64,000 nucleotides of DNA from Halostagnicola larsenii XH-48 (lineage in GTDB: Archaea; Halobacteriota; Halobacteria; Halobacteriales; Natrialbaceae). The notes below the pieces were generated by a model. That model ran no database searches, had not been told where the DNA came from, and saw only the letters and a program-made list of their open reading frames with translations. A program made the translations under genes and the position numbers. Shown here piece after piece: positions 4,035-35,039 of the stretch. How positions within the stretch are numbered: position 1 is the first letter of the stretch; each line of letters starts with the position of its first letter. The DNA lies in NCBI RefSeq assembly GCF_000517625.1, contig NZ_CP007055.1, positions 2,046,001-2,110,000 on the forward strand. Reading direction: 5' to 3'.

Positions 4035-5068
4035 TATATCCTACCTTTTCCCAGAGAAAGGTAATTGCTTCGAGTTTCCACGAGATCGAACTGTCCTGAA
4101 CGCATCTGTTCGAGTGATACTGTGTCAACGGTTGGCAAAACAATAGCGATGGTGACGGCCAGAGCGACGGCGACGACGACGGCGATACCAGCGGCGATGG
4201 TGACGGTGGCGACGGCCCGTTCGGCGTCGGCCACGGACGGAAGCGCCGTCTTCGGCCGATCGTTGAGCGCGTACGCACCCGGTTTCTCGAGTCGGATCGA
4301 ACGCGCGCAGGCGAGCGTCGCCATCGGCCACCCCGAGTTCGGCGACGACGGCACTCGAGCCCATCGCCGAGCGCGGGAAAGCGCTGCCGGGTCGGCCGCC
4401 GCGACCGCGAGACAGACCGCCGTGATCCGCGCCGGAATCCACATCACGATATCGTCGAGGCGCGCGCTCGCCGTACCGATGGGCTTCGACCGGTAGCCGA
4501 GCATCGAATCCAGCGTGTTGACGCCCTTGACCCAGGCCGCGACGCCGGCGGCCGCCGGCAACGAAACGGGTGCGAGCACCGCGAACGGAATCATCGCGGC
4601 GACGAAGCCGTCCGAGAGGTTCTCCGCCGCGCTCTCGGTCGCGGCGCTTCGGATCTGGGCCGGCGACAGGTCCGCGTCGTCGCGGCCGGCGAGTCCTCGA
4701 AGCTGCTCGCGAGCCCGCTCGAGGTCGGTCTCCGTGGCCGCGACGACCGATCCGCTCAACTCGAGGAGGAGCCGCAGACTGGTCGAACAGTAGAGGACGA
4801 GCGCGGCCGTCAGTGCACCGAGTGCCGGTGCGACGACCGTCGCTGCGAGGACAATAGTGCCGGCGACGACGGCAAGGCCGAGCGGCAGGGCCAGCGCGAT
4901 AATCGCGCCGATTCGGCGCTGTCGCCGCTCGCTGCCGCCCCAGTCTCTGTCGACCGCCCCGACGAGCCGACCGAACCACGCGACGGGGTGGACCCGATTC
5001 GGCGGCTCCCCGACCAACAGGTCGAGCGAGACCGCCAGCGCGAGGGCGGCCAGTGTCGTTACGGGCAC
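4034..5068 (-). CDS. cbiB: Adenosylcobinamide-phosphate synthase CbiB
   Basis: A 344-aa membrane protein that condenses adenosylcobyric acid with aminopropanol phosphate, the CobD product. The N-terminus carries the family motif SLDLLVGEPPNRVHPVAWFG, followed by hydrophobic helices and by SAATESAAENLSDGFVAAMI and VKGVNTLDSMLGYRS in the middle. The upstream-most in-frame start at 5158 would overlap the HAD gene by 56 nt. I prefer GTG at 5068, which puts the conserved N-terminal helix at the very start and leaves 34 nt after the HAD stop. The stop shares one base with the cobS start. The C-terminal ~20 residues after the last helix look poorly conserved. Confidence 0.87.
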   Translation of the reverse strand: MPVTTLAALALAVSLDLLVGEPPNRVHPVAWFGRLVGAVDRDWGGSERRQRRIGAIIALALPLGLAVVAGTIVLAATVVAPALGALTAALVLYCSTSLRLLLELSGSVVAATETDLERAREQLRGLAGRDDADLSPAQIRSAATESAAENLSDGFVAAMIPFAVLAPVSLPAAAGVAAWVKGVNTLDSMLGYRSKPIGTASARLDDIVMWIPARITAVCLAVAAADPAALSRARRWARVPSSPNSGWPMATLACARSIRLEKPGAYALNDRPKTALPSVADAERAVATVTIAAGIAVVVAVALAVTIAIVLPTVDTVSLEQMRSGQFDLVETRSNYLSLGKGRI

Positions 5069-5102
5069 CGCGTGACCTCCGAGAACGTGATCGCAGGTCG
5101 AG

Positions 5103-5756
5103 TTACTTCCATAGTTCGCCTCCCGAAAATAGTCGAGGGAGCGCCTCGAGCGTCTCACCCGCGGATTCGCCGTCCTCGAGAAGGATCGCGGTGCCGCCGA
5201 CGCCCTCGACGCCGCCGTCAGTCGCCGGATCGTCGCCGACGTGGACGAGTTCGGACGGCGCGACGCCGAGTCGATCCGCTGCCACCTCGAACATCTCCGG
5301 GGCGGGTTTGCGCCAGCCGCAGCCGACGCTGGTCACGACGGCGTCGAAATCGTCCCGGCGCAGGTCGGCCCGGACCAGCGTTCGGCCGACGAGTTCGGGC
5401 ACGCTGCAGTTCGAGCAGAGCCCGACCGGTCCCGGTCCGTGTTCTCGAGCGGCCTCGATCACCGCTCGAGCGCCGTCTCTGGTCTCGACCTCGGGATCGA
5501 ACGCGGCGACGACGGCCCGCCGGGCGGCGTTTGCCGGACAGTCTACCCCGCGGCTGGCGAGGGCTCGAGCGACGTGGGCCGGGAGCGGGACCTCCGCGCC
5601 CTCGGGCGCATCGATGTGCATCTCGGTGTACGCGTCGGCCCAGTCGGGCGGCACGTCGACGCCTCGCTCCTCGAGTTCCGCCGCGACAGCAGCGGCCGGA
5701 TCATCGGGTCTGGTCGCGGTTACGAGCGTCCCGAACAGATCGAACGTTACTCCCAC
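5103..5756 (-). CDS. HAD-superfamily hydrolase heading the cobamide operon
   Basis: A 217-aa haloacid dehalogenase-superfamily protein. Motif I is FDLFGTLV at the N-terminus with the nucleophile Asp, motif II is around GLCSNCSVPE, motif III is the Lys in GWRKPAPEMFE, and motif IV is VHVGDDPATDGG. Motif I is DxF rather than DxD, so the usual second Asp acid/base is absent; some HAD phosphatases and the dehalogenases share this. I chose GTG at 5756, directly before motif I. It is the first gene of the cobamide operon, 34 nt before cbiB, which suggests a role as a phosphatase acting on a pathway phosphate ester. That role is inference; a general housekeeping phosphatase is equally possible. Confidence 0.75.
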   Translation of the reverse strand: MGVTFDLFGTLVTATRPDDPAAAVAAELEERGVDVPPDWADAYTEMHIDAPEGAEVPLPAHVARALASRGVDCPANAARRAVVAAFDPEVETRDGARAVIEAAREHGPGPVGLCSNCSVPELVGRTLVRADLRRDDFDAVVTSVGCGWRKPAPEMFEVAADRLGVAPSELVHVGDDPATDGGVEGVGGTAILLEDGESAGETLEALPRLFSGGELWK

Positions 5757-5883
5757 GTGCGTGTAACTGGCACAAGCTGACTTTAGTTTCGCGGTCGACC
5801 GATGTCCTCGAGTCGTATCAGAAGGCAACCGTCGATGGCCGGCGCGCGCTGGCTGCGCTGCTGGCGAACGCTGTGAGCCAGTA

Positions 5884-6750: not shown

Positions 6751-7719
6751 TCAACGGAGGCCCAAGCGCCCACGAAGATTCTTCGCTAGCGTACGCAACG
6801 CGAACCCGACCTCCCGGCGCGATTTCGTCGAGTAGTACGCCCCGAGCGAATCGGGAACGGTCGGCTCGAGCCCCGGATCGCGAAGCGATTCGATCCCGGT
6901 CGCGAGTAACTCGACCTCGAGTTCGTGGACGCGATCGTAGACGTCCCACAGCGTCGCACAGTCGTCGATGTCGATCCAGTCTTCGGCGACGATCTCGCCG
7001 CTGTCGATGCCCTCGGTGAGTCGCTGCAGCGTCGCACCGATGCTCGAGCGATCGTCGACGAACGCCTTCGGTGGTCCGAGCCCCCGATACCGCCTGATAT
7101 CTGCGGGGTGAAAACTCAACACGCCGTGTTCGGTCGCGGTGAGAATGTCGCCGCGAACCAGTCCGAAGCCGAACCTGACGACGACGTCACACCGGTCCGC
7201 AGCGGCCTCGACGGCCGATTCGGGGAGTTCGTTCCAGTTGCCGTCTTCGATCGGGCGCACGTGACGAACCGTCGACGACTCGAGGCAGTCGACGTCCCCG
7301 ACCCGCTGGCGGTGCTCGAGCGGATGGGACTCAGGCCCGACCAGTTCGGCGAGTTTCCGTTCGGCGACGACCAGCGACCAGGCTCGCTCCCGAGCGAGGA
7401 GGGACGCTCCCAGTCGAATCGTGTCGATGCTGAGGCCGCCGTTGACCGCCGAGGCGGCGGCTTCGGGGTCGACGTCGGGGTCGGCGGGGGCGGCCACCAG
7501 CACCAGCGGAATCTCGATATCCGTCCGCTCGATCGCCCGCTCGAGCGCGCGGATCTGCCAGCGCTCGAGGTAGGGATCGGCGAGGAGACAGACGCGACGC
7601 GGACCGGTTTTGGGCCTCGAGGCGGCCGTTAAATCGGTCTCCGTCCCCGGGTCAGTTTGTGTCGCTGGATCGTTCCCCGTCGCGTGGTCGACCTCCAAGC
7701 GTTCTCGTGTCGTCGTCAT
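6751..7719 (-). CDS. Formyltransferase-family protein
   Basis: A 322-aa protein of the methionyl-tRNA formyltransferase/GART-like fold. The core motif is LSFHPADIRRYRGLGPPKAF near residue 215, followed by GATLQRLTEGIDSGEIVAED, which carries the expected catalytic His and Asp. The usual Asn two residues before the catalytic His is Ser here (SFHP rather than NxHP), so catalysis may be altered. There is no C-terminal tRNA-binding domain, so methionyl-tRNA is an unlikely substrate. The ATG at 7719 overlaps the stop of the deacetylase gene in ATGA, so the two are cotranslated. A role in N-formylation of a sugar or amino-sugar is inference from this pairing. Confidence 0.75.
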   Translation of the reverse strand: MTTTRERLEVDHATGNDPATQTDPGTETDLTAASRPKTGPRRVCLLADPYLERWQIRALERAIERTDIEIPLVLVAAPADPDVDPEAAASAVNGGLSIDTIRLGASLLARERAWSLVVAERKLAELVGPESHPLEHRQRVGDVDCLESSTVRHVRPIEDGNWNELPESAVEAAADRCDVVVRFGFGLVRGDILTATEHGVLSFHPADIRRYRGLGPPKAFVDDRSSIGATLQRLTEGIDSGEIVAEDWIDIDDCATLWDVYDRVHELEVELLATGIESLRDPGLEPTVPDSLGAYYSTKSRREVGFALRTLAKNLRGRLGLR

Positions 7720-8762
7720 CGGTTCGGTGAGTTGGCTGCGTGGTGGCGGGAGGGCGACCCGAGTGCGTGCGGGCGAGGCGGGTTTTCGCCGGCGGTCCGG
7801 CCGCGGGATCCGTCCGGGTTGGCAAATGCACCGGCCTCGTCGCCCTCGCGAGCCGCCAGCGTCTCGAGCGTCTCCGCAACGGTTCCGTCCGGATGCGTCG
7901 TCGCGTCGTAGAACGCCCGCGGCGGCCCGACCCACGCGCCCATCTCGAGAGCCCGTTCGATGATCCAGCGGTAGACGCTTCCCCAGCCGGGAAAGTCCGG
8001 GTCGTAGAACGTCCGCTGGTGCCAGTCGAGGACGAGAACCCCGGTTTCGTCGCGTACCTCCTCGAGGAGCCGCTCGCAGTTGTCCGTGATCCGCGACATC
8101 GTCCGGGCGGACTCCATCGTCGTCTGGTCCATGATCGTCCACGGGAAAACGACGAACTCGTCGTCGAAGGGTCGGCGCAGTTCGTAGCCGTACTGGAACT
8201 CGAGGCTGTGCGGATCGGCCAGCGAGGTGTCGTAGTCGAGTCCGATCTCGCGGTGGTGGTCCCAGGTCTCGGGTTGGGCGAGATTGAGGTAGTGCTGGCG
8301 GTTTCCGCGGACGCGTCGCCCCGTCGCGTCCTCGATGCGCTCTTTCTCGTACCGAAGCCGGTCAGGATCTCTGGGAGAGGTAAACGAGCCCTGTAACCCG
8401 ACCTCCCAACCGCCGTTCTCGAGGCTCTCGATCGTCGACGCCAGTTGCGGATCGGTCACGTCGTAGCGCCCGGAGTAGCGACTCCAGCCTGCAAGCGTCG
8501 CCCACTCGCGCTTGGGACGCTCCGCGAGGCGGCGTTCGTCGAGGACGTAAAACGCCGATCGGACGCCGAGCATCGACTCGAGGGCCATGATTCGTTCGAA
8601 CTGCCAGTAGGGGTTCTTCGCCGAAACCAGGCCGGTCAGCTGACGAGGGTCTCGCTGTTCGAGACAGTCGAAGAGGTAATTCTGCGGGGTTTTGTAAACG
8701 CGATCGATATCGTGAGTGAGACAGAGGGCAAAGGAGTACGCTCGGTCTCCGCGTGAAGCCAT
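7716..8762 (-). CDS. Polysaccharide deacetylase family protein
   Basis: A 348-aa protein with the NodB-homology fold. CLTHDIDRV near residue 13 is the metal-binding THDxD motif and VLVLDWHQRTF near residue 245 supplies a C-terminal His. GNRQHYLNL near residue 155 resembles the mid-domain motif with Arg and His. Such enzymes remove acetyl groups from amino sugars or act on related amides. There is no signal peptide, so it probably acts in the cytoplasm on precursors. A TATA-like AAATAAATAG lies 18-28 nt upstream of the ATG, fitting a leaderless mRNA. It forms an ATGA-coupled pair with the formyltransferase-like gene, suggesting joint modification of a surface sugar. The last ~60 residues are low-complexity. 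Confidence 0.8.
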   Translation of the reverse strand: MASRGDRAYSFALCLTHDIDRVYKTPQNYLFDCLEQRDPRQLTGLVSAKNPYWQFERIMALESMLGVRSAFYVLDERRLAERPKREWATLAGWSRYSGRYDVTDPQLASTIESLENGGWEVGLQGSFTSPRDPDRLRYEKERIEDATGRRVRGNRQHYLNLAQPETWDHHREIGLDYDTSLADPHSLEFQYGYELRRPFDDEFVVFPWTIMDQTTMESARTMSRITDNCERLLEEVRDETGVLVLDWHQRTFYDPDFPGWGSVYRWIIERALEMGAWVGPPRAFYDATTHPDGTVAETLETLAAREGDEAGAFANPDGSRGRTAGENPPRPHALGSPSRHHAANSPNR

Positions 8763-26117: not shown

Positions 26118-26168
26118 GCATCTGTCGTATCAACAGTGCCTCTCGCCGCCACCGAGCCAGGGAAAACG

Positions 26169-27119
26169 ATGCAACAGGAACACATCCAGACGGGCAAGGC
26201 GATTCAGAAACGAACCGGGAAGACGTTCTATCTCGCGACCCGGTTTCTCCCCGAGCGCGTTCGCCACGCCACGCACGTCCTCTACGCCTTCTTTCGGATC
26301 GCCGACGAGGTCGTCGACGACGCGAACGGCGCGCCGCCTGCCGAACAGGCCGCTCGCCTCGAGTCGTTACGAGCACAGGCTCTCGGCGAACAGCCCCCAG
26401 AAGACGACGTGCTCATCGCGTTCGATCAGCTTCGCGACCGGTACGATATCGCCGATCGGGAGATCGACGTCTTCATCGACGCGATGAAGACCGACATCGA
26501 GACGAACCGCTACGAGCGCTACGCCGATCTCGAGGCGTACATGCGCGGTTCGGCCGCGTCGGTCGGCGTGATGATGACGGCGATTATGGAACCCGACGAA
26601 CCCGACCTCGCCCGCCCCCACGCGGTAAAACTCGGCGAGGCGTTCCAGATGACCAACTTCCTGCGCGACGTTCGCGAGGACGTTCTCGAGCGGGATCGGA
26701 TCTACCTCCCGCTCGAGAGCCTCCGCGAGCACGGCGTCGATCAGGGGGCGGTCGAGAACCTCGCGTTCTCGGACGCGTTCGCGTCGGTGATGCAGTCGGA
26801 ACTCAAACGAACGGAACGACTCTATCGCGAGGGCGTCGCGGGAATCAGATACCTGCCGAAAGACTGCCAGTTGCCGGTGTTGCTCGCGGCAGTGTTGTAC
26901 GCCGAACACCACCGCGTGATCCGGGCACAGGACTACGACGTGTTGAACCGGGAACCGTCACTTTCGCCGTCGCGAAAACTGTGGTGTCTCGCCAGAACGC
27001 GTTGGCACTGGCACTGGAATCGTGATCCGGAAGCCGTCTTCAAGCGCGTTTCGGCGGTTCCGCCGAGCGAAACCGGCCAGCACGGACCCGGTCACGGGGA
27101 GCGCGTACCGATGCGGTGA
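26169..27119 (+). CDS. crtB: Phytoene synthase CrtB
   Basis: A 316-aa enzyme that condenses two geranylgeranyl diphosphates into phytoene, the first committed step of carotenoid synthesis. The two Asp-rich Mg2+-binding motifs are visible: RIADEVVDDANG near residue 57 and TNFLRDVREDVLERDRIYLP near residue 160. The N-terminal TGKTFYLATRFLP is also typical. The ATG at 26169 fits both the family N-terminus and the TATA box at 26109-26117; an earlier in-frame start at 26136 would lie before the predicted transcript start. The desaturase and C50 genes lie 4-8 kb away on the other strand, separated by the PGA operon. Confidence 0.93.
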   Translation: MQQEHIQTGKAIQKRTGKTFYLATRFLPERVRHATHVLYAFFRIADEVVDDANGAPPAEQAARLESLRAQALGEQPPEDDVLIAFDQLRDRYDIADREIDVFIDAMKTDIETNRYERYADLEAYMRGSAASVGVMMTAIMEPDEPDLARPHAVKLGEAFQMTNFLRDVREDVLERDRIYLPLESLREHGVDQGAVENLAFSDAFASVMQSELKRTERLYREGVAGIRYLPKDCQLPVLLAAVLYAEHHRVIRAQDYDVLNREPSLSPSRKLWCLARTRWHWHWNRDPEAVFKRVSAVPPSETGQHGPGHGERVPMR

Positions 27120-27565: not shown

Positions 27566-28726
27566 ATGATTGCGGCCGTAGCGATCACCGTCCTCGGACT
27601 CGCGATCGGCAGCGTAATCACGCAAACCACCGGATACCGGCTCGGGGGAGTGATCGTCGTTCCACTCCTGGCGGTGTATACGCTGTACTCGTTCGCCGCG
27701 CTTCCGCTGTTTCTCGTGAGCGGGGTCGTCGCCTACTATCTGGTCGGCGGTATTCGGTCACACACGCTCATCCACGGCCGACAGCTACTACTCACCAGTC
27801 TGGCCGTCGGAGCGACCGTTCCAATCGCGTCGTTCGCGCTGTTCGAGATCTGGAACGTCTTCGGTTCCGCCGTCGAAATCGCGTTCTTCGGGGCGATCCT
27901 CCCGGGGATCGCGGCGTACAACTACCACAAACTGGACCCCGACGAGCGCCGCGCCGACGTGCTCTACAGCGGCGGCCTCTTGATCGGGCTGATCGCCTTC
28001 GGTGCCTCGATCGTCAACCCGACGTTTGCAACGCAACTCGATACCGGGTTAGCGTCGATCCTGTTCGCACCCGGCTCCGACATCGCGCAGTTCCGTCACT
28101 CCGTGCGCGCCGCTCCTGGAACCGCGGCCGTTCTCGACCAGATGTGGATGCTCGTGCTCCTCGGAACGGGGCTCGTCCTCTCCGAGTGGGCGAACTCCCG
28201 TTGGGGCGTCAGGCTCGGCGGACTCGTCGCCATGCCGCTGCTCGTCGCACTGTCGCTAAGCAATAGCTGGGCGCTCGGAGTCTATATCGTCGCCCTCGCG
28301 GCGGTCTACGCCACGATCACGCTCGTCAATGCGGGGACGCTCGTGTACGGTCGCGCGCTGTTGAGCACCGGTCTGATCGCGGCGATGACGGTCGGCGCGC
28401 TCGTCGCGTTGCTCGCGCCGGTCGTTACCGGATTCACGCTGTATTTCGTCGTCCTGCTGGCGGGCGTCGGCGCGTACAACTTCCACCGGGTCGCACCGGC
28501 CGAACGGTTCGCATCGGTCAGCCTCTCCGCCGGAACGTACGCAACGCTCCTGATCGGCACTCGATCCTTCGTCGAGCCGACCCCGGAGGGGATCCTGGCA
28601 ACCGTCTCGGCCGTCGAGGTTGCCCTCCTGCTCGTCACACTCGCACTCAGTGCCTACTGGGTGCTGACGCTCGAGCGACGTCGGTGGACAGTTTCGAAAC
28701 GACACTCCAGAGGTACGCTTTCATGA
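27566..28726 (+). CDS. pgsC: Poly-gamma-glutamate biosynthesis membrane protein PgsC/CapC, internally duplicated
   Basis: A 386-aa polytopic membrane protein. Bacterial PgsC is about 150 aa; this one holds two copies of that unit. GYRLGGVIVVPLLAVYTL near residue 25 matches GVRLGGLVAMPLLVALSL near residue 215; HTLIHGRQLL matches GTLVYGRALL; and PGIAAYNYHKLDPDERRA matches AGVGAYNFHRVAPAERFA. PgsC works with the ligase PgsB to make and export poly-gamma-glutamate at the membrane. The stop overlaps the pgsB start in ATGA, confirming the operon. About 10-12 hydrophobic helices are predicted by eye. The upstream frame is open in another reading but lacks haloarchaeal character. Confidence 0.88.
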   Translation: MIAAVAITVLGLAIGSVITQTTGYRLGGVIVVPLLAVYTLYSFAALPLFLVSGVVAYYLVGGIRSHTLIHGRQLLLTSLAVGATVPIASFALFEIWNVFGSAVEIAFFGAILPGIAAYNYHKLDPDERRADVLYSGGLLIGLIAFGASIVNPTFATQLDTGLASILFAPGSDIAQFRHSVRAAPGTAAVLDQMWMLVLLGTGLVLSEWANSRWGVRLGGLVAMPLLVALSLSNSWALGVYIVALAAVYATITLVNAGTLVYGRALLSTGLIAAMTVGALVALLAPVVTGFTLYFVVLLAGVGAYNFHRVAPAERFASVSLSAGTYATLLIGTRSFVEPTPEGILATVSAVEVALLLVTLALSAYWVLTLERRRWTVSKRHSRGTLS

Positions 28727-30000
28727 GTCAACAACACCCAACCAATCCGTCTCAGATCAACGAGAACCGAACCATCGTCGATACCATCGCCCGAATCGGA
28801 CAGCAGTTCGTCCAACGGGTCCTCCCCGGCGTAGCCCACTCCAAGCGCCTCGAGCAGATCGATACGAAAATCGTCGTCTCGGGGACGCGCGGGAAATCCA
28901 GTCTCACCCGGTGGATGCACGATATCCTCCATCGACGAGAGTACGACACCTACGCCAAAGTCACGGGGAACAATCCCGTCTCGATTCACTCCGGGACTGA
29001 AGAACCGATCGAACGCGAGGGGCTGGTTCGACTCTACGAGAACGAACGGGAGATCCGAGCGCACACCCCGAAGGATGCGATGATCGTCGAAAACCAGGCG
29101 ATCTCCTCCTACACGACCCGAATGTTCAACGCCCGCTTTGCGGACCCTGACGTGCTGGTGCTCAGCAATATCCGCGAGGATCACCTTTCAACGCTCGGAA
29201 CCGACCGTTACAAGGTGGCACGCGGACTGGTTCGAGCGGTCCCCGAGGGCACCCACGTCGTCAACGCCGAACAGGATCCCGCCCTCCGCGAGTACGTCGA
29301 AACCGAAGTGCAGCGCCGCGGAGCGACCGTAAGCCACGTTACGGTCCCGTCCGAGTACGAGCAGATCCCCGGTATCGAATCGATCTACGCGTTAAACGAG
29401 GTCCTCGAGGCGATCGATGAGACGCCGCTTTCGGAGGATGAACTGGCGCACTATCGCGAGCAGATGGACGTCGAGTGGACGCAACTGTACAACGGTCGAG
29501 TCTACAACGCCGCGGAGGTCAACGACGTCCAGAGCACCGAGATGATCCGCAGGGCGCTGTTTACGCGTGACTCCTCCGTCGATCAGATCGTCCCCTTTCT
29601 CTATCTCCGAGGTGATCGCCGCGGTCGGACCGTCTCGTTCCTGCACTACCTGAACGAGCTGTATCGGGCGGACGATCCGGTCTTCGACCGCGTTCACGTC
29701 GCCGGCGAGACGACGGCGGCGTTCGAGCGAAAGGCGTCGTTCCCGGTGACGGTCCACGACAAAGACGCTGACGCGGTGATCGTACTCGACAATCTGCTCG
29801 CCGGTCAGAAGCCGGTCTTTATCATGGGCAATACGGTCGCCGACTTCATGCGAGATCTCGAGGTCGCGATCGACGCCCGCAAGGCGACCGACGAGCCGGT
29901 TCAGGTGCTCGCCGGTCCGACCGCCAGCCAACCTCCGGGCGAACCATCGGTTCGAGAGAAAAGTCAACACGCCTCATCGCAACTGCCGAGCGACGACTGA
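28723..30000 (+). CDS. pgsB: Poly-gamma-glutamate synthase PgsB/CapB
   Basis: A 425-aa Mur-ligase-like amide ligase. It activates the gamma-carboxyl of glutamate with ATP and extends the poly-gamma-glutamate chain. The P-loop is VVSGTRGKSSLTRWMHDIL near residue 49, followed by AKVTGNNPVSIHSGTE and MIVENQAISSYTTRMF; VLVLSNIREDHLSTLGTDRY near residue 150 is the family signature. The ATG at 28723 overlaps the pgsC stop by ATGA. The C-terminal ~30 residues are a disordered tail. No PgsA (tethering) or PgsE gene follows, and no CapD gamma-glutamyltranspeptidase is seen; instead the next gene encodes a PGA hydrolase-type protein. Confidence 0.9.
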   Translation: MSQQHPTNPSQINENRTIVDTIARIGQQFVQRVLPGVAHSKRLEQIDTKIVVSGTRGKSSLTRWMHDILHRREYDTYAKVTGNNPVSIHSGTEEPIEREGLVRLYENEREIRAHTPKDAMIVENQAISSYTTRMFNARFADPDVLVLSNIREDHLSTLGTDRYKVARGLVRAVPEGTHVVNAEQDPALREYVETEVQRRGATVSHVTVPSEYEQIPGIESIYALNEVLEAIDETPLSEDELAHYREQMDVEWTQLYNGRVYNAAEVNDVQSTEMIRRALFTRDSSVDQIVPFLYLRGDRRGRTVSFLHYLNELYRADDPVFDRVHVAGETTAAFERKASFPVTVHDKDADAVIVLDNLLAGQKPVFIMGNTVADFMRDLEVAIDARKATDEPVQVLAGPTASQPPGEPSVREKSQHASSQLPSDD

Positions 30001-30103
30001 GCGACCTCGACCGGACGGCTCTCGCGAAGGTAGATACGTCTCTATATTTATTTTCTAAAATAAAATTCGTAATTATAATATGTTCGGTCGATAATAAGGG
30101 CAC

Positions 30104-31195
30104 ATGGGCGATAAAAAGACCAATCGAACGGTATCGAGAAGAAACATCATGGCTGGGCTGGTCGGCACTCCCGTCCTGTTCGGCGGAGCGATCGGCGCGT
30201 ACGAAGTAAGCGCTCGCAAGGACTCCGTCGAGTCAGTCGAAAACCAGGCCGTCGACAGGGACGGCGAGTCGACCGAGGTCACCCTCGGCTTCGACACGCA
30301 GGACCGGTTCGACGAAGAGACGTTCACCTACCTCGCGGCGAGTTCGGACGTCCTCAACGTCGTCGGACGAACGACCGGCGAGCAAGTTCGCGTCCGACGA
30401 GGGGACGACGAGTACGCAGTCTACACGATCGACCGAGAGGATAGCGACGACGAGCGCTCCGTGTTCGCCAACGAACTGGCACGCGCCCGTCTCGACCTCG
30501 AGAACGTCGACTGGGAGGACATCGGTGACTGTCGCATCACTTGTCCGCGACCCTCGGTCGATGTCCCGATCAACGACGAGGACGAGGTCGAAGTCGAAGT
30601 CAACCCGACGGTCGTCGATCCGGATCTATCCGTCGACGAAGCCGAAGACCAAGGCGAATACGTCGAGGTCGTCGACTCGAGCGATGCGAACGCGATCGTC
30701 CTCTCGCCACACGGCGGGGACGTCCAGCCGCACACCGGCGAGCAGGCCGAAACCGTCGTCGACGAACTGGACGGGGACGTTGCTCACTGGGGAACGCGCG
30801 GATACAGCACCAACGGGAGCGCGTTCATCCGCTGGTACGTTCCGTCCTACAACATGTCCGAGGCCTCCTACCCCGGCCTCGCAGCGGTTAGCGAGAACGA
30901 GTACGAGTACGCGATCTCGTTCCACGGAACCTGCGACCCGGTGATTCAGATCGGCGGACAGGCACCCGAATCGTTCCGCGCCGAGGTTCGCGACGCGATC
31001 AACGAAGTCCTCGCGGACACCGACTACGAAGCGGTTCTTGGCTCCGGCGACTACCGTGTTGACGGGGACCAGACCCTGCCGAACCGTCTCGCATCCCGCT
31101 GTGGGATCTGGATCGGACAGGACGACGACTCGAGAGCGCAGTACGGGACGGAGATCGCGCAAGCGGTCGCGGGCGTCCTCGAGACCCGGATCTAA
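30104..31195 (+). CDS. Poly-gamma-glutamate hydrolase-family protein, Tat-exported
   Basis: A 363-aa protein. The N-terminus has a twin-arginine signal (TVSRRNIMAGLVGTPVLFGG) and no lipobox Cys. The C-terminal ~190 residues match the PGA hydrolase/YjqB family (PF05908): AIVLSPHGGDVQPHTGEQAE near residue 205 with a zinc-binding HGG, then YAISFHGTCDPVIQIGGQ near residue 270. Phage PghP of this family cuts gamma-linked polyglutamate. It follows pgsB by 103 nt, so it could trim or release the capsule, or act as an immunity or remodelling enzyme. The middle domain (residues 50-190) is strongly acidic and unrecognised. An AT-rich block at 30045-30095 could supply an independent promoter. Confidence 0.85.
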   Translation: MGDKKTNRTVSRRNIMAGLVGTPVLFGGAIGAYEVSARKDSVESVENQAVDRDGESTEVTLGFDTQDRFDEETFTYLAASSDVLNVVGRTTGEQVRVRRGDDEYAVYTIDREDSDDERSVFANELARARLDLENVDWEDIGDCRITCPRPSVDVPINDEDEVEVEVNPTVVDPDLSVDEAEDQGEYVEVVDSSDANAIVLSPHGGDVQPHTGEQAETVVDELDGDVAHWGTRGYSTNGSAFIRWYVPSYNMSEASYPGLAAVSENEYEYAISFHGTCDPVIQIGGQAPESFRAEVRDAINEVLADTDYEAVLGSGDYRVDGDQTLPNRLASRCGIWIGQDDDSRAQYGTEIAQAVAGVLETRI

Positions 31196-31243: not shown

Positions 31244-32173
31244 TCAGAACGACTCTCGCCATCCGTCTGGAAGCGACGAGGCGAGCGTCTCGAGATCGTA
31301 CCGATCCGTCTGCAGCAAGCCACCGCCAAACAGGAGCGCGACGCCGACGGCGAGCCAGTTCCCGTAGAGAACGTTGATCGTCCCCCACAGCAAGACGAAG
31401 CTCACGAGGTCGTCGAGGACGAACTCGCAGTCGTCGACTCGAGCCCGCAGCGCCGAGCGGTCGAACGCGATGTCGACGAGGACGACCGCGACGGTGCCCG
31501 AGAGGAGCCAGCCGAGGTAGTTCGAGACTGGGACGCCGTAGTAGCTCCCGGCGGGGTCGTATGCCCAGAAACCGATCGCAACCGCTCCGGGGTCGAGCAC
31601 GAGGTCGACGGCGACGACGGCGAGAATCGCGACGGGCAAGCGGACCAACGCGCTGTCGGCGAGTTCCTCGAGCACCAACAGCGTCAACAGGTACGCGTTG
31701 AGCACGAGCGGGACGAAAAACAGCGGCAGGGCCAGCGGGACCTCGCCGAAGAGCATCGGCCCGAGCTGGATCGAGTACTCGAAGGCCCCGTAGGGCCAGT
31801 CGGTTCGGACGCCGACCATTTCGATGGCGTACGTGTAGGCCGTCAAGAACGCGAGCAGGCCGAGCGCTCGCCGATCGATTCGGGGGAGAAGCCCGACCAC
31901 GAGCGGCGAACGCATGACCGCAGTTCCAAAAAGGAGAAACAGCGGATTGTACGCGAACGGTGCCGGGACCAGCCCCGCCGCGCTTGCGAGCAACGTCACC
32001 GCGCCGACGATCGGAAAGACGACCGCGATCGTGAACCGATGCTCCCGAACGAGCGCCTCGAGCCGTCGCTGGACAGCCGCTCGCGTGCGTGGCGTCCTCG
32101 AGTCGTCGCCGCTCGAGCGGCCTGGCTCGGACGCGACGTCCGGGTCGTCCTCACCGGCTCCGTTCTCAGCCAT
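31244..32173 (-). CDS. cruF: Bisanhydrobacterioruberin hydratase CruF
   Basis: A 309-aa membrane protein of the CruF/carotenoid biosynthesis family (DUF422). In haloarchaea CruF hydrates the ends of bisanhydrobacterioruberin to make bacterioruberin, the red C50 pigment. Family features include AYTYAIEMVGVRTDWPYGAF near residue 105, YSIQLGPMLFGEVPLALPL and VLDPGAVAIGFWAYDP near residue 190, spread over about seven helices. The first ~35 residues are a hydrophilic acidic extension. The start overlaps the end of lyeJ by 8 nt, so this is the third gene of a crtI/crtD-lyeJ-cruF operon. Confidence 0.88.
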   Translation of the reverse strand: MAENGAGEDDPDVASEPGRSSGDDSRTPRTRAAVQRRLEALVREHRFTIAVVFPIVGAVTLLASAAGLVPAPFAYNPLFLLFGTAVMRSPLVVGLLPRIDRRALGLLAFLTAYTYAIEMVGVRTDWPYGAFEYSIQLGPMLFGEVPLALPLFFVPLVLNAYLLTLLVLEELADSALVRLPVAILAVVAVDLVLDPGAVAIGFWAYDPAGSYYGVPVSNYLGWLLSGTVAVVLVDIAFDRSALRARVDDCEFVLDDLVSFVLLWGTINVLYGNWLAVGVALLFGGGLLQTDRYDLETLASSLPDGWRESF

Positions 32174-33071
32174 AGAACAGCCTCCAGAGCCCGCCCATCG
32201 TCAGGACGGCTCCGACGGCGGTGTTGATCGCGGGAAACCACCAGTACGCCCGATCGACGGCCACGCTCGCGGTTGCGACGGCCGCGACGAGCGCCGGGTA
32301 GACGAGCATGAGCGCGCCGAGGCGATACTCGAGCGCACCGAAGGCGACGGCGGCGAGCAGCCAGCAGACGCCGCAGTAGGCGTACGTCCGTCTCTCGCCG
32401 AGCACCGTCGCCGTCGTTCGGATTCCGGTCGCTCTGTCGGGTTCGATATCGGGAATCGCCGAAAAGGTGTGCATGGCCATCGCCCAGAGCCAGCCGGCCA
32501 GGATCGCGAGCAGCGGGGGCTGGCTCCCGGCGACGGCCGCGTAGGCCGCTCCGGCGGGGGCGACGTAGAGCCCATTTGAAAGCGAATCGAGGGGCGGCGT
32601 GGTTTTGAACCGAAGCGGCGGCGCGCTGTAGGCGGCTCCCAAGAAGAGAAATACCGCGAGCCACGGCCACACTCCGGACGAAAGCACCGGAAAGAACGCC
32701 AGCGGAAGGAGCGCGCACGCGGCGACGGCGACGGGGACGACCCGCTGTCCCTCGTAGCGGGTTTCTTTGTCCGCCTTTTTCGGATTCGCTGCATCGATCT
32801 CCCGGTCGTAGATGTCGTTGATCCCGTACAGGAACACGTTCGCCGGGAGCAGGAAGTACCCGAGCAGGACGACGACCGGCAGCGAAATGAGGTCGCCGGC
32901 AGACGCCGCCGCGTACGCGACCCCCACGAGCACCGGCCCCGCCAGATACAGCCAGAACCGCGGTCTCGAGAGCGCCAGCAGGTATCGAAGCGTCCCCGCG
33001 GGCGTATTTGTGCTCTCAGTTGCCTCGATGCGGACCGATTCGGCGTCGCCGCTCGGTTCGTCGTCGGTCAT
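32166..33071 (-). CDS. lyeJ: Lycopene elongase/hydratase LyeJ (UbiA family)
   Basis: A 301-aa UbiA-family prenyltransferase. It adds C5 units from dimethylallyl diphosphate to both ends of lycopene, with hydration, on the way to bacterioruberin. The first Asp-rich motif is YGINDIYDREIDAANPKKAD near residue 75 and the second, FSAIPDIEPDRATGIRTTA, lies near residue 195. About eight helices are visible. The frame is open upstream but that part is a shadow of the desaturase; ATG at 33071 gives the usual length. The stop overlaps cruF by 8 nt. The location next to cruF separates it from menaquinone-type UbiA proteins. Confidence 0.9.
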   Translation of the reverse strand: MTDDEPSGDAESVRIEATESTNTPAGTLRYLLALSRPRFWLYLAGPVLVGVAYAAASAGDLISLPVVVLLGYFLLPANVFLYGINDIYDREIDAANPKKADKETRYEGQRVVPVAVAACALLPLAFFPVLSSGVWPWLAVFLFLGAAYSAPPLRFKTTPPLDSLSNGLYVAPAGAAYAAVAGSQPPLLAILAGWLWAMAMHTFSAIPDIEPDRATGIRTTATVLGERRTYAYCGVCWLLAAVAFGALEYRLGALMLVYPALVAAVATASVAVDRAYWWFPAINTAVGAVLTMGGLWRLFYG

Positions 33072-33081
33072 CGGTCCGTAG

Positions 33082-34596
33082 TCATCCGCCGTAGTCCTCG
33101 AACACGGCGTCGGCCGTGAGTTCGCCGCTGATGAGACACATCGGGACGCCGATGCCGGGCGTGGTGTACGATCCCGTAAAGTAGAGGCCGTCGACCTCCT
33201 TCGACCGGTGGGGCGGCCGAAACAGTGCGGTCTGGCTGAGCGTGTGTGCCATCCCCAGGGCCGTTCCCCGGTAGCTGTTGTACCTGTCGGCGAAGTCCTC
33301 GACGCTGAATCGCTCCTCGAGGACGATCCGGTCGCGGAGGTCCTCGCCGGTGTTCGCCGCGATGTCCTCGAGCACCTGCTCTCGGTACCGTTCGCGGCGC
33401 TCGGGGGTATCCTCGAGGCCGGGTGCGATCGGAACGAGGACGAAGAGGGTGCTGTGGCCGTCCGGTGCGACGTCGTCGTCCGTTTTCGACGGCACGCAGC
33501 AGTAGTAGGCGGGGTCGTCGGGCCAGGCCGGTTCCTCGAAGATCTGCTCGAAGTGCTGGTTCCACTCCGTCGGGAGGACGAGCGTGTGGTGGGCGAGTTC
33601 GTCGACCTCGCCCTCGAGGCCGAGATAGAGCAAGAACGCGGATGGCGCGTACGTCCGCGACTCCCAATAGTCAGGGTCGTAGCCGCGCTGGTCGGGCGCG
33701 AGCAGTTCCTGCTCGGTGTGTGCGTAATCGGCGTTGCTGACCACGATGTCGGCCTCGAACGCGCTGGGGCGTGCGGGTGAATCCTCCCCATCTCGAGGAT
33801 CGGTTTCGACTAAAAACGCGCCGTACCTGCCCTTGATCGCCGTGACCGGCTGGTTCGTTTCGTAGGTGACGCCGAGTTCGCGACCCAGTTCGACGAACGC
33901 GTCGATAACGCCGCCGACTCCGCCTTCGGGATACCAGACGCCGAGGGTAAAATCGACGTGGCTCATCAGGTTGTACAGCGCCGGCGTGTTGTTCGGCGAT
34001 CCCCCGAGAAAGACCAGCGTGTACTGCATGATCTGCTGGAGCTTCGGATGGTCGAAGTACTTCTCGACGTGGCCCTGCATCGTCCCGAGCAAGGAGAGCC
34101 CTCGAGCCTGTCGCGCGACGTCGAGGTCGAGGTAGTCACGCACCCGCGTTCGGTCCTCGTAGACGAAGTGTTCCATCCCGACCTCGTAGTTCTCGCGAGA
34201 TTTCTCGAGATACCGTTCTAACGCCTCGCCGGCTCCGTCCTCGTAGGATTCGAAGAGCGCTTTCGTCTCCGCGAGGTCGGGCGTGATGTCCACCTCGTCG
34301 CCGTCCTTGAAGAAAATTCGATAGTGCGGATCGAGGTGGGCGAGGTCGTAGTAGTCCGTCGGCGTACGATCGAACCGGCCGAAAAAACGCTCGAATACGT
34401 CCGGCATCAGGTACCACGAGGGACCCATATCGAATCGAAAGCCGTCTCGCTCGAGCACCGACGCTCGGCCGCCGAACTGTTCGTTCTTCTCGATGACGCG
34501 GACGTCCGCTCCCGCATCCGCGAGGTAACAGGCCGTCGACAGCCCGCCGACGCCAGCGCCCACGACGGCGACTGATTCACCAGCCAACGAGTTCAT
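33082..34596 (-). CDS. crtD: Carotenoid desaturase (CrtI/CrtD family)
   Basis: A 504-aa FAD-dependent desaturase. The N-terminal dinucleotide fold is VAVVGAGVGGLSTACYLADA, with VIEKNEQFGGRASV closing the FAD site, and FRFDMGPSWYLMPDVFERFF is typical of CrtI-like enzymes. The C-terminal FAD motif is GLYFTGSYTTPGIGVPMCLI. In characterised haloarchaea the enzyme beside lyeJ and cruF is the carotenoid 3,4-desaturase CrtD; from sequence alone phytoene desaturase (CrtI) cannot be excluded. ATG at 34596 fits the fold start, and CTTATCA at 34621-34627 (minus strand) is a TATA-like box about 28 nt upstream, giving a leaderless transcript. Confidence 0.85.
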   Translation of the reverse strand: MNSLAGESVAVVGAGVGGLSTACYLADAGADVRVIEKNEQFGGRASVLERDGFRFDMGPSWYLMPDVFERFFGRFDRTPTDYYDLAHLDPHYRIFFKDGDEVDITPDLAETKALFESYEDGAGEALERYLEKSRENYEVGMEHFVYEDRTRVRDYLDLDVARQARGLSLLGTMQGHVEKYFDHPKLQQIMQYTLVFLGGSPNNTPALYNLMSHVDFTLGVWYPEGGVGGVIDAFVELGRELGVTYETNQPVTAIKGRYGAFLVETDPRDGEDSPARPSAFEADIVVSNADYAHTEQELLAPDQRGYDPDYWESRTYAPSAFLLYLGLEGEVDELAHHTLVLPTEWNQHFEQIFEEPAWPDDPAYYCCVPSKTDDDVAPDGHSTLFVLVPIAPGLEDTPERRERYREQVLEDIAANTGEDLRDRIVLEERFSVEDFADRYNSYRGTALGMAHTLSQTALFRPPHRSKEVDGLYFTGSYTTPGIGVPMCLISGELTADAVFEDYGG

Positions 34597-34691
34597 TGCA
34601 CCCAGATAACAGGGACTGGGTGATAAGGCTGAGTCACACATAGGTAGGTTTCGTGACGGATCGCGGACGATACAACGAAAGGGAGTCCTCG

Positions 34692-35039
34692 TCACTCGAG
34701 GACTTCTTCGTGGATCGACTCGCCGCTTCCCGGCTTCGACTCCCACTCCCACTCGTCTTCGACCCTGATGCGGCCGTCTTCGAGGAGTTCGACGTCGCCG
34801 ACCGAGTGACCGGTCGCCGTTTCGCCGTCCGCGTTGATCTGGGCGTATCGAACGTCCCACCGTTCGCCGTCGAACGTGCCGACCAGGTGACCGTCCACGA
34901 CGGCACCGCCGGAGTAGGTCGCGTACAGTCGGTTCCCCGTCTGTTCGAACTGAAAGTACGTGTCCGCACCGACTTCTCCCGACTCGTCGTTTGCAACACC
35001 GGCGAGCGTACGGCCGTCGAACGAGATTTCGTCTGCCAT
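34692..35039 (-). CDS. Small beta-rich protein of the family often labelled N-acetylglutamate synthase
   Basis: A 115-aa soluble protein. Motifs such as TYFQFEQTGNRLYATYSGG, VDGHLVGTFDGERWDVRY and RIRVEDEWEWESKPGSGES give alternating strands and turns, a lipocalin-like barrel. Bacterial relatives are annotated as N-acetylglutamate synthase, but I see no acetyltransferase motif, so that label is probably wrong. The usual family ending GES(I/W)xEE is present. The gene is alone, 95 nt upstream of the carotenoid operon on the same strand. Confidence 0.65.
   Translation of the reverse strand: MADEISFDGRTLAGVANDESGEVGADTYFQFEQTGNRLYATYSGGAVVDGHLVGTFDGERWDVRYAQINADGETATGHSVGDVELLEDGRIRVEDEWEWESKPGSGESIHEEVLE

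Follow-up and report, generated by a model that had tools for sequence, protein, structure and literature searches.

A candidate PgsA-independent poly-gamma-glutamate synthase in Halostagnicola larsenii, with a doubled PgsC and a predicted pseudo-hydrolase

The stretch of Halostagnicola larsenii XH-48 DNA analyzed here (64,000 nucleotides, contig NZ_CP007055.1, positions 2,046,001 to 2,110,000; the whole stretch is termed the window) contains pgsC and pgsB genes, followed by a gene for an exported protein of the poly-gamma-glutamate (PGA) hydrolase family. On balance, we favor the reading that these genes encode a PgsA-independent L-PGA synthase, composed of PgsB and a doubled PgsC, with a PGA-binding pseudo-hydrolase as its third subunit. 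The pseudo-hydrolase is the new element, while the doubling of PgsC is real but ordinary for its class. An earlier, sequence-only reading of the window had proposed a PGA synthase with a duplicated PgsC and without PgsA. That part stands, since PF14102 matches PgsC twice and PF09587 is absent from the entire genome, but the strain-specific arrangement and the active hydrolase that it also envisaged do not.

Organization of the operon

The following features, in window coordinates, were assigned on the plus strand (basis of assignment in parentheses).

27566-28726, plus strand: pgsC/capC, tandem-duplicated membrane subunit, 386 amino acids (PF14102)
28723-30000, plus strand: pgsB/capB, Mur-ligase-type amide ligase, 425 amino acids (PF08245, TIGR04012, P-loop)
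30104-31195, plus strand: twin-arginine (Tat)-secreted gamma-PGA-hydrolase-fold protein, clade I, predicted pseudo-enzyme, 363 amino acids (PF05908, Foldseek)
30122-30205, plus strand: twin-arginine signal region NRTVSRRNIMAGLVGTPVLFGGAIGAYE, without a lipobox Cys (sequence)
30710-30727, plus strand: putative former metal site HGGDVQ, corresponding to PghL His41 to Glu46, with Glu46 replaced by Gln (alignment to PghL residues)
31109-31135, plus strand: putative former catalytic strand WIGQDDDSR, with Glu165 replaced by Gly and the PGA-anchoring Arg171 kept (alignment to PghL residues)

PgsC matched PF14102 in two separate stretches (116.5 bits, cut-off 27; E-value 1.2e-33). The start of pgsB overlaps the stop of pgsC (ATGA), and the two genes adjoin one another in 68 loci. 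PgsB was recognized by PF08245 (26.8 bits, cut-off 24; E-value 6e-6) and carries the P-loop motif GTRGKS. The third protein gave a PF05908 score of 28.6 bits (cut-off 22) and has a twin-arginine signal; its gene begins 103 nt after the pgsB stop, the interval (30001-30103) being AT-rich. The ATGA link and the Tat-secreted PGA-hydrolase-family protein after pgsB had both been described correctly in the sequence-only reading.

Loss of active-site residues in the third protein

In a Foldseek search with the model of the third protein, the best match in the PDB was PghL bound to PGA (5onj, E = 1.5e-8). An N-terminal domain that resembles the p97/CDC48 N domain (double-psi barrel) is followed by the PghP/PghL-like domain. 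In PghL, the zinc ligands are His41, Glu46 and His102, the catalytic residue is Glu165, and Arg171 anchors PGA by a glutamate carboxylate of the chain, such that the R171S substitution abolishes cleavage (PMC6506827). Compared with PghL, the window protein has Gln in place of Glu46 and Gly in place of Glu165, while His41, His102 and Arg171 are kept.

The distribution of these residues was analyzed further in an alignment of 60 haloarchaeal homologues, comprising 17 proteins of clade I, to which the window protein belongs, and 43 others. Sixteen of the 17 clade I genes lie directly downstream of pgsB in the same direction, the position by which they were assigned to the clade, and similarity was the criterion for the remaining one, L145, which lies on a split contig. 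Within clade I, Glu165 is lost in all 17 proteins (Gly, Ser or Ala), Glu46 is Gln in 14 and His102 is lost in 9, while Arg171 is kept in every one. In contrast, the other 43 homologues all kept His41, Glu46 and His102, and 42 of them also kept Glu165. Clade I is monophyletic (support 100/99), and the loss thus counts as one ancestral event rather than 17 independent ones. Moreover, the ratios of nonsynonymous to synonymous substitution (dN/dS) in six pairs of clade I genes were about 0.05-0.27, similar to those of PgsB and PgsC. Such purifying selection argues that the third gene is not a decaying pseudogene.

Judged by these residues, the clade I protein is probably a catalytically dead hydrolase, and the simplest reading would be that of an exported, PGA-binding pseudo-enzyme. 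The proposal that the downstream protein is an active hydrolase that sets chain length is therefore contradicted by the invariable loss of Glu165 and the usual loss of a zinc ligand. By the same token, automatic naming of the gene product as a PGA hydrolase probably gives the wrong function.

In eight loci (L041, L048, L045, L046, L074, L077, L109 and L059), a dead PF05908 protein is paired with an intact one, the two flanking or adjoining the same capC-capB operon. The H. larsenii genome itself carries an unlinked PF05908 gene (C1:2748124-2748579; L139 7065-8162, minus strand) with an intact PghL-type active site, which makes it a candidate for a genuine PGA hydrolase.

The doubled PgsC

Unit 1 of PgsC spans approximately residues 1-160 and unit 2 approximately residues 192-350, after which there is an extra C-terminal helix (349-385). 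The N-terminal and C-terminal halves were matched by BLASTP (E = 3.7e-15, 33.6% identity over 131 amino acids) and, in a profile-profile comparison (hhalign), over 155 columns with a probability of 99.8% (E = 4.5e-29), against a highest probability of 1.1% among ten column-shuffled control profiles. By these alignments, the two halves are homologous and the duplication is genuine. The AlphaFold2 model, computed with 39 homologues, had a predicted local distance difference test score (pLDDT) of 89.7 and a predicted template modeling score (pTM) of 0.88. Its N-terminal half consists of helices 2-22, 31-41, 45-67, 72-94, 108-121 and 125-149, and a matching series was present in the C-terminal half (192-213, 222-232, 235-258, 262-283, 289-308 and 311-333). 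The protein size, the motif pairs and the coordinates given in the sequence-only reading were all exact, and the alignment and modeling of the halves that it had suggested bear the repeat out.

Several residues are kept in both halves, namely Arg25 and Arg216, the YGR-type Arg at 72 and 263, and the AYN motif at 117-119 and 303-305. A pseudo-dimer in which both halves work would fit, because these key residues are conserved in each, and the matching helices in a confident model make a two-fold pseudo-symmetric channel possible. Neither the sequence nor a Foldseek search with the model revealed a significant relative of PgsC among the solved structures of the PDB.

The occurrence of doubled PgsC was then surveyed with PF14102 in 242 Halobacteria genomes, and about 75 loci were fetched for scoring of the half-domains. 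The family is present in 59 of the genomes, nearly always in open frames of 380-460 amino acids. All intact PgsC proteins gathered from haloarchaea contain two units at a spacing of about 190 residues; the shorter cases examined were frameshifted, fragmentary or, in one case, a metagenome fragment. In terms of other lineages, a non-haloarchaeal family (f13) is also doubled with the same unit spacing, while another family from outside the Halobacteria (f30) has a genuine single-length PgsC of about 159 amino acids, adjoining PgsB. In a tree of the half-units, all of the C-terminal halves fell into one clade (support 100/100), so that one ancient fusion, in an archaeal ancestor, is the simplest explanation, and the doubled form is the norm of its class. 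The survey rules out a strain oddity or an artefact. It also bears on the sequence-only reading, which had called for a survey of haloarchaeal pgsC length and had considered the arrangement special and undescribed: the intact proteins are all doubled, but the doubling is not peculiar to this strain.

Frameshifted or split pgsC or pgsB genes were observed in L133, L080 and L049, a sign that the capsule system may have been lost repeatedly.

Doubled, divergent PgsC is thus widespread in archaea, contrary to a 2015 survey in which PgsC was reported as not found there (PMC4497714). The NCBI annotation designates the doubled proteins PgsC/CapC with no remark on the doubling. In the literature, which was covered in part, we found no published description of a doubled or fused archaeal PgsC or of the dead hydrolase.

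Absence of PgsA

Neither a PgsA nor a CapD gene adjoins the window operon. The sequence-only reading had remarked on the missing neighboring PgsA, and the absence extends further, since a profile search of the whole 4.13-Mb genome with PF09587 gave no match. Two gamma-glutamyltransferase (GGT, PF01019) genes are present in the genome, both unlinked to the operon. PgsA is absent genome-wide in G000, G119 and G181.

A connection between doubling and loss of PgsA, as implied in the sequence-only reading, did not hold. When selected downstream genes were scanned with Pfam, PgsA was found linked to a doubled PgsC in 11 other loci, and doubled PgsC lies beside PgsA in named plasmids of Haloarcula hispanica (order C-B-A) and Halorubrum lacusprofundi (A-C-B). 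The doubling therefore does not replace PgsA, and compensation for a missing PgsA is ruled out as its explanation.

In the natural producer Natrialba aegyptia, L-PGA of >1000 kDa has been reported, without a supply of D-glutamate (PMC3815933). In the genome of strain DSM 13077, PgsC is encoded at exactly two loci, in doubled form at each; one of them is a triad like that of the window (PgsC 60% identical). PF09587 gave no match in this genome. In B. subtilis, PgsBC without PgsA yields abundant PGA, 95% of it in the L form (PMC6029982). Taken together, these observations suggest that these archaea naturally make L-PGA with a PgsBC synthase that lacks PgsA. In a natural producer, the absence of PgsA would thereby be tied to pure L-PGA, in agreement with the result from pgsA-less Bacillus.

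Proposed function and alternatives

In the synthase as we picture it, PgsB would link L-glutamate residues at the membrane through gamma-amide bonds, in an ATP-dependent reaction, and the doubled PgsC would form the membrane part, probably the exit path of the chain. PgsA would take no part. The third protein, exported by the Tat pathway, would bind the emerging L-PGA outside the cell, thus holding, guiding or tethering the polymer instead of cutting it. We extend this to the class only tentatively, leaning slightly against the broader claim, in which a dead, polymer-gripping relative of PGA hydrolases is a dedicated secreted subunit of haloarchaeal L-PGA synthases that have an ancient, fused PgsC pseudo-dimer and lack PgsA. 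If true, a degradative enzyme would have been turned into part of a machine for PGA synthesis or tethering. The genes that are likely to make L-PGA in archaea would also be defined, and the two candidate loci in N. aegyptia make the question directly testable.

Several observations weigh against the proposed synthase. Both PgsC and PgsB scored below the NCBIfam equivalog cut-offs (TIGR04011, 32.4 bits versus 96.45, and TIGR04012, 103.7 bits versus 222.7, respectively), and glutamate is presumed to be the substrate from the relationship to Natrialba. Within clade I, Glu46 persists in three proteins (L074, L075 and L077) and His102 in eight, which leaves room for some metal binding, and the kept Arg171 would be an indirect sign of PGA binding. 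The AT-rich gap upstream of the third gene could contain a separate promoter. Finally, three loci carry both PgsA and the pseudo-hydrolase, which is thus not a simple stand-in for PgsA.

The last point bears directly on the possibility that the pseudo-hydrolase functionally replaces PgsA as an extracellular subunit needed for polymerization or export. The position after pgsB is indeed held by PgsA in other loci (L060 and Haloarcula pHH126), and PgsA is missing from G000, G119, G181 and N. aegyptia. However, PgsA is also linked at 3 of the 16 loci with a pseudo-hydrolase, such that mutual exclusion, and with it a strict replacement, is unsupported (Fisher p 0.71); many loci have neither, and PgsA is dispensable in B. 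subtilis (PMC6029982). We consider replacement unlikely.

A role in regulating, or protecting against, the active clade II hydrolases, as decoy, inhibitor or partner, appears somewhat less likely still. Such a role would accord with the intact homologues that adjoin the operon in the eight loci listed above and with the single unlinked intact copy in the H. larsenii genome, but no clade II (active-site-intact) gene was found in the triad-bearing genomes G119 and G166, and an obligate pair of enzyme and pseudo-enzyme is therefore unsupported.

It is quite improbable that the third protein is still a gamma-PGA hydrolase or transferase, which trims or releases the polymer by means of a rearranged site (e.g., with Asp44 of HGGDVQ serving for the lost Glu). 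Its PF05908 membership, the retained fold, and the His41 and His102 kept in the window copy would be in keeping with activity. Nevertheless, the general base Glu165 and Asn151 are each lost in 17 of 17 clade I proteins, the paralogue in a second triad of the same genome (L005, see below) has lost Glu46, His102 and Glu165 together, and alanine substitutions in PghP at the corresponding zinc-ligand and catalytic residues were reported to be deleterious (PMC6506827). Equally improbable is an operon whose product is a different polymer, or which attaches gamma-glutamyl groups to a surface molecule. The sub-threshold PgsB and PgsC scores would point to such an operon, but it sits poorly with the presence of this triad in N. 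aegyptia, an L-PGA producer, and with the clustering of PGA-hydrolase-family genes with the operon.

A second triad and the genomic setting

A second triad in the same order, about 0.54 Mb away, encodes a doubled PgsC (406 amino acids), PgsB and a Tat-type PF05908-like protein, which scores below the Pfam cut-off. Two of its genes are placed as follows.

C1:2605000-2620000, 7299-8519, minus strand: PgsC of the second triad (L005)
C1:2605000-2620000, 4766-5863, minus strand: hydrolase-like gene of the second triad (L005)

In the PgsB tree, the two triads fall in separate subclades, and they are thus either old paralogues or separately acquired copies. Loci of PgsB clade 2 (L124, L111, L054, L116 and others), in which PgsB is often about 530 amino acids long, are often located next to sensor kinases and response regulators and often on plasmids.

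The window operon sits inside a carotenoid cluster, with crtB upstream (window 26136-27119) and cruF, a lyeJ-like prenyltransferase gene and a crtD-like gene downstream (window 31244-34860). The same carotenoid order, with the PGA operon in its middle, recurs in another genus (L047). At a different locus (L115, 5020-6390, minus strand), a glutamate dehydrogenase-family gene lies directly downstream of capC-capB and could possibly provide a dedicated supply of glutamate.

Comparison with known systems

The window operon shares with the Bacillus PgsBCA/CapBCA system a Mur-ligase-type PgsB and a membrane PgsC encoded side by side. The Bacillus PgsC, however, has about 149 amino acids, versus 386 in the doubled protein, and the window operon further differs in its C-B order, in a genome without PgsA and in a third gene for a protein of the PGA-hydrolase fold.

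The capC-capB-PF05908 loci of Natrialba aegyptia and N. taiwanensis comprise these three genes in an identical order, and their pseudo-hydrolase shows the same residue losses. These loci have other chromosomal surroundings, with no carotenoid genes matched, and no experimental link between the Natrialba triad genes and the PGA polymer was found in the literature searched.

A doubled PgsC also adjoins PgsB in Haloarcula hispanica pHH126 and Halorubrum lacusprofundi pHLAC01, and a bacterial-type CapBCA has been proposed for Haloquadratum walsbyi (PMC1544339). Unlike the window operon, these three haloarchaeal systems have CapA, and in several of the haloarchaeal PgsA loci the PgsB belongs to a different clade.

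The third protein has the fold, the HGG motif and the Arg171 of PghP and PghL (PF05908). In contrast to these enzymes, its Glu165 is replaced, as is Glu46 (usually, within clade I), and it bears an additional p97-N-like domain and a Tat signal.

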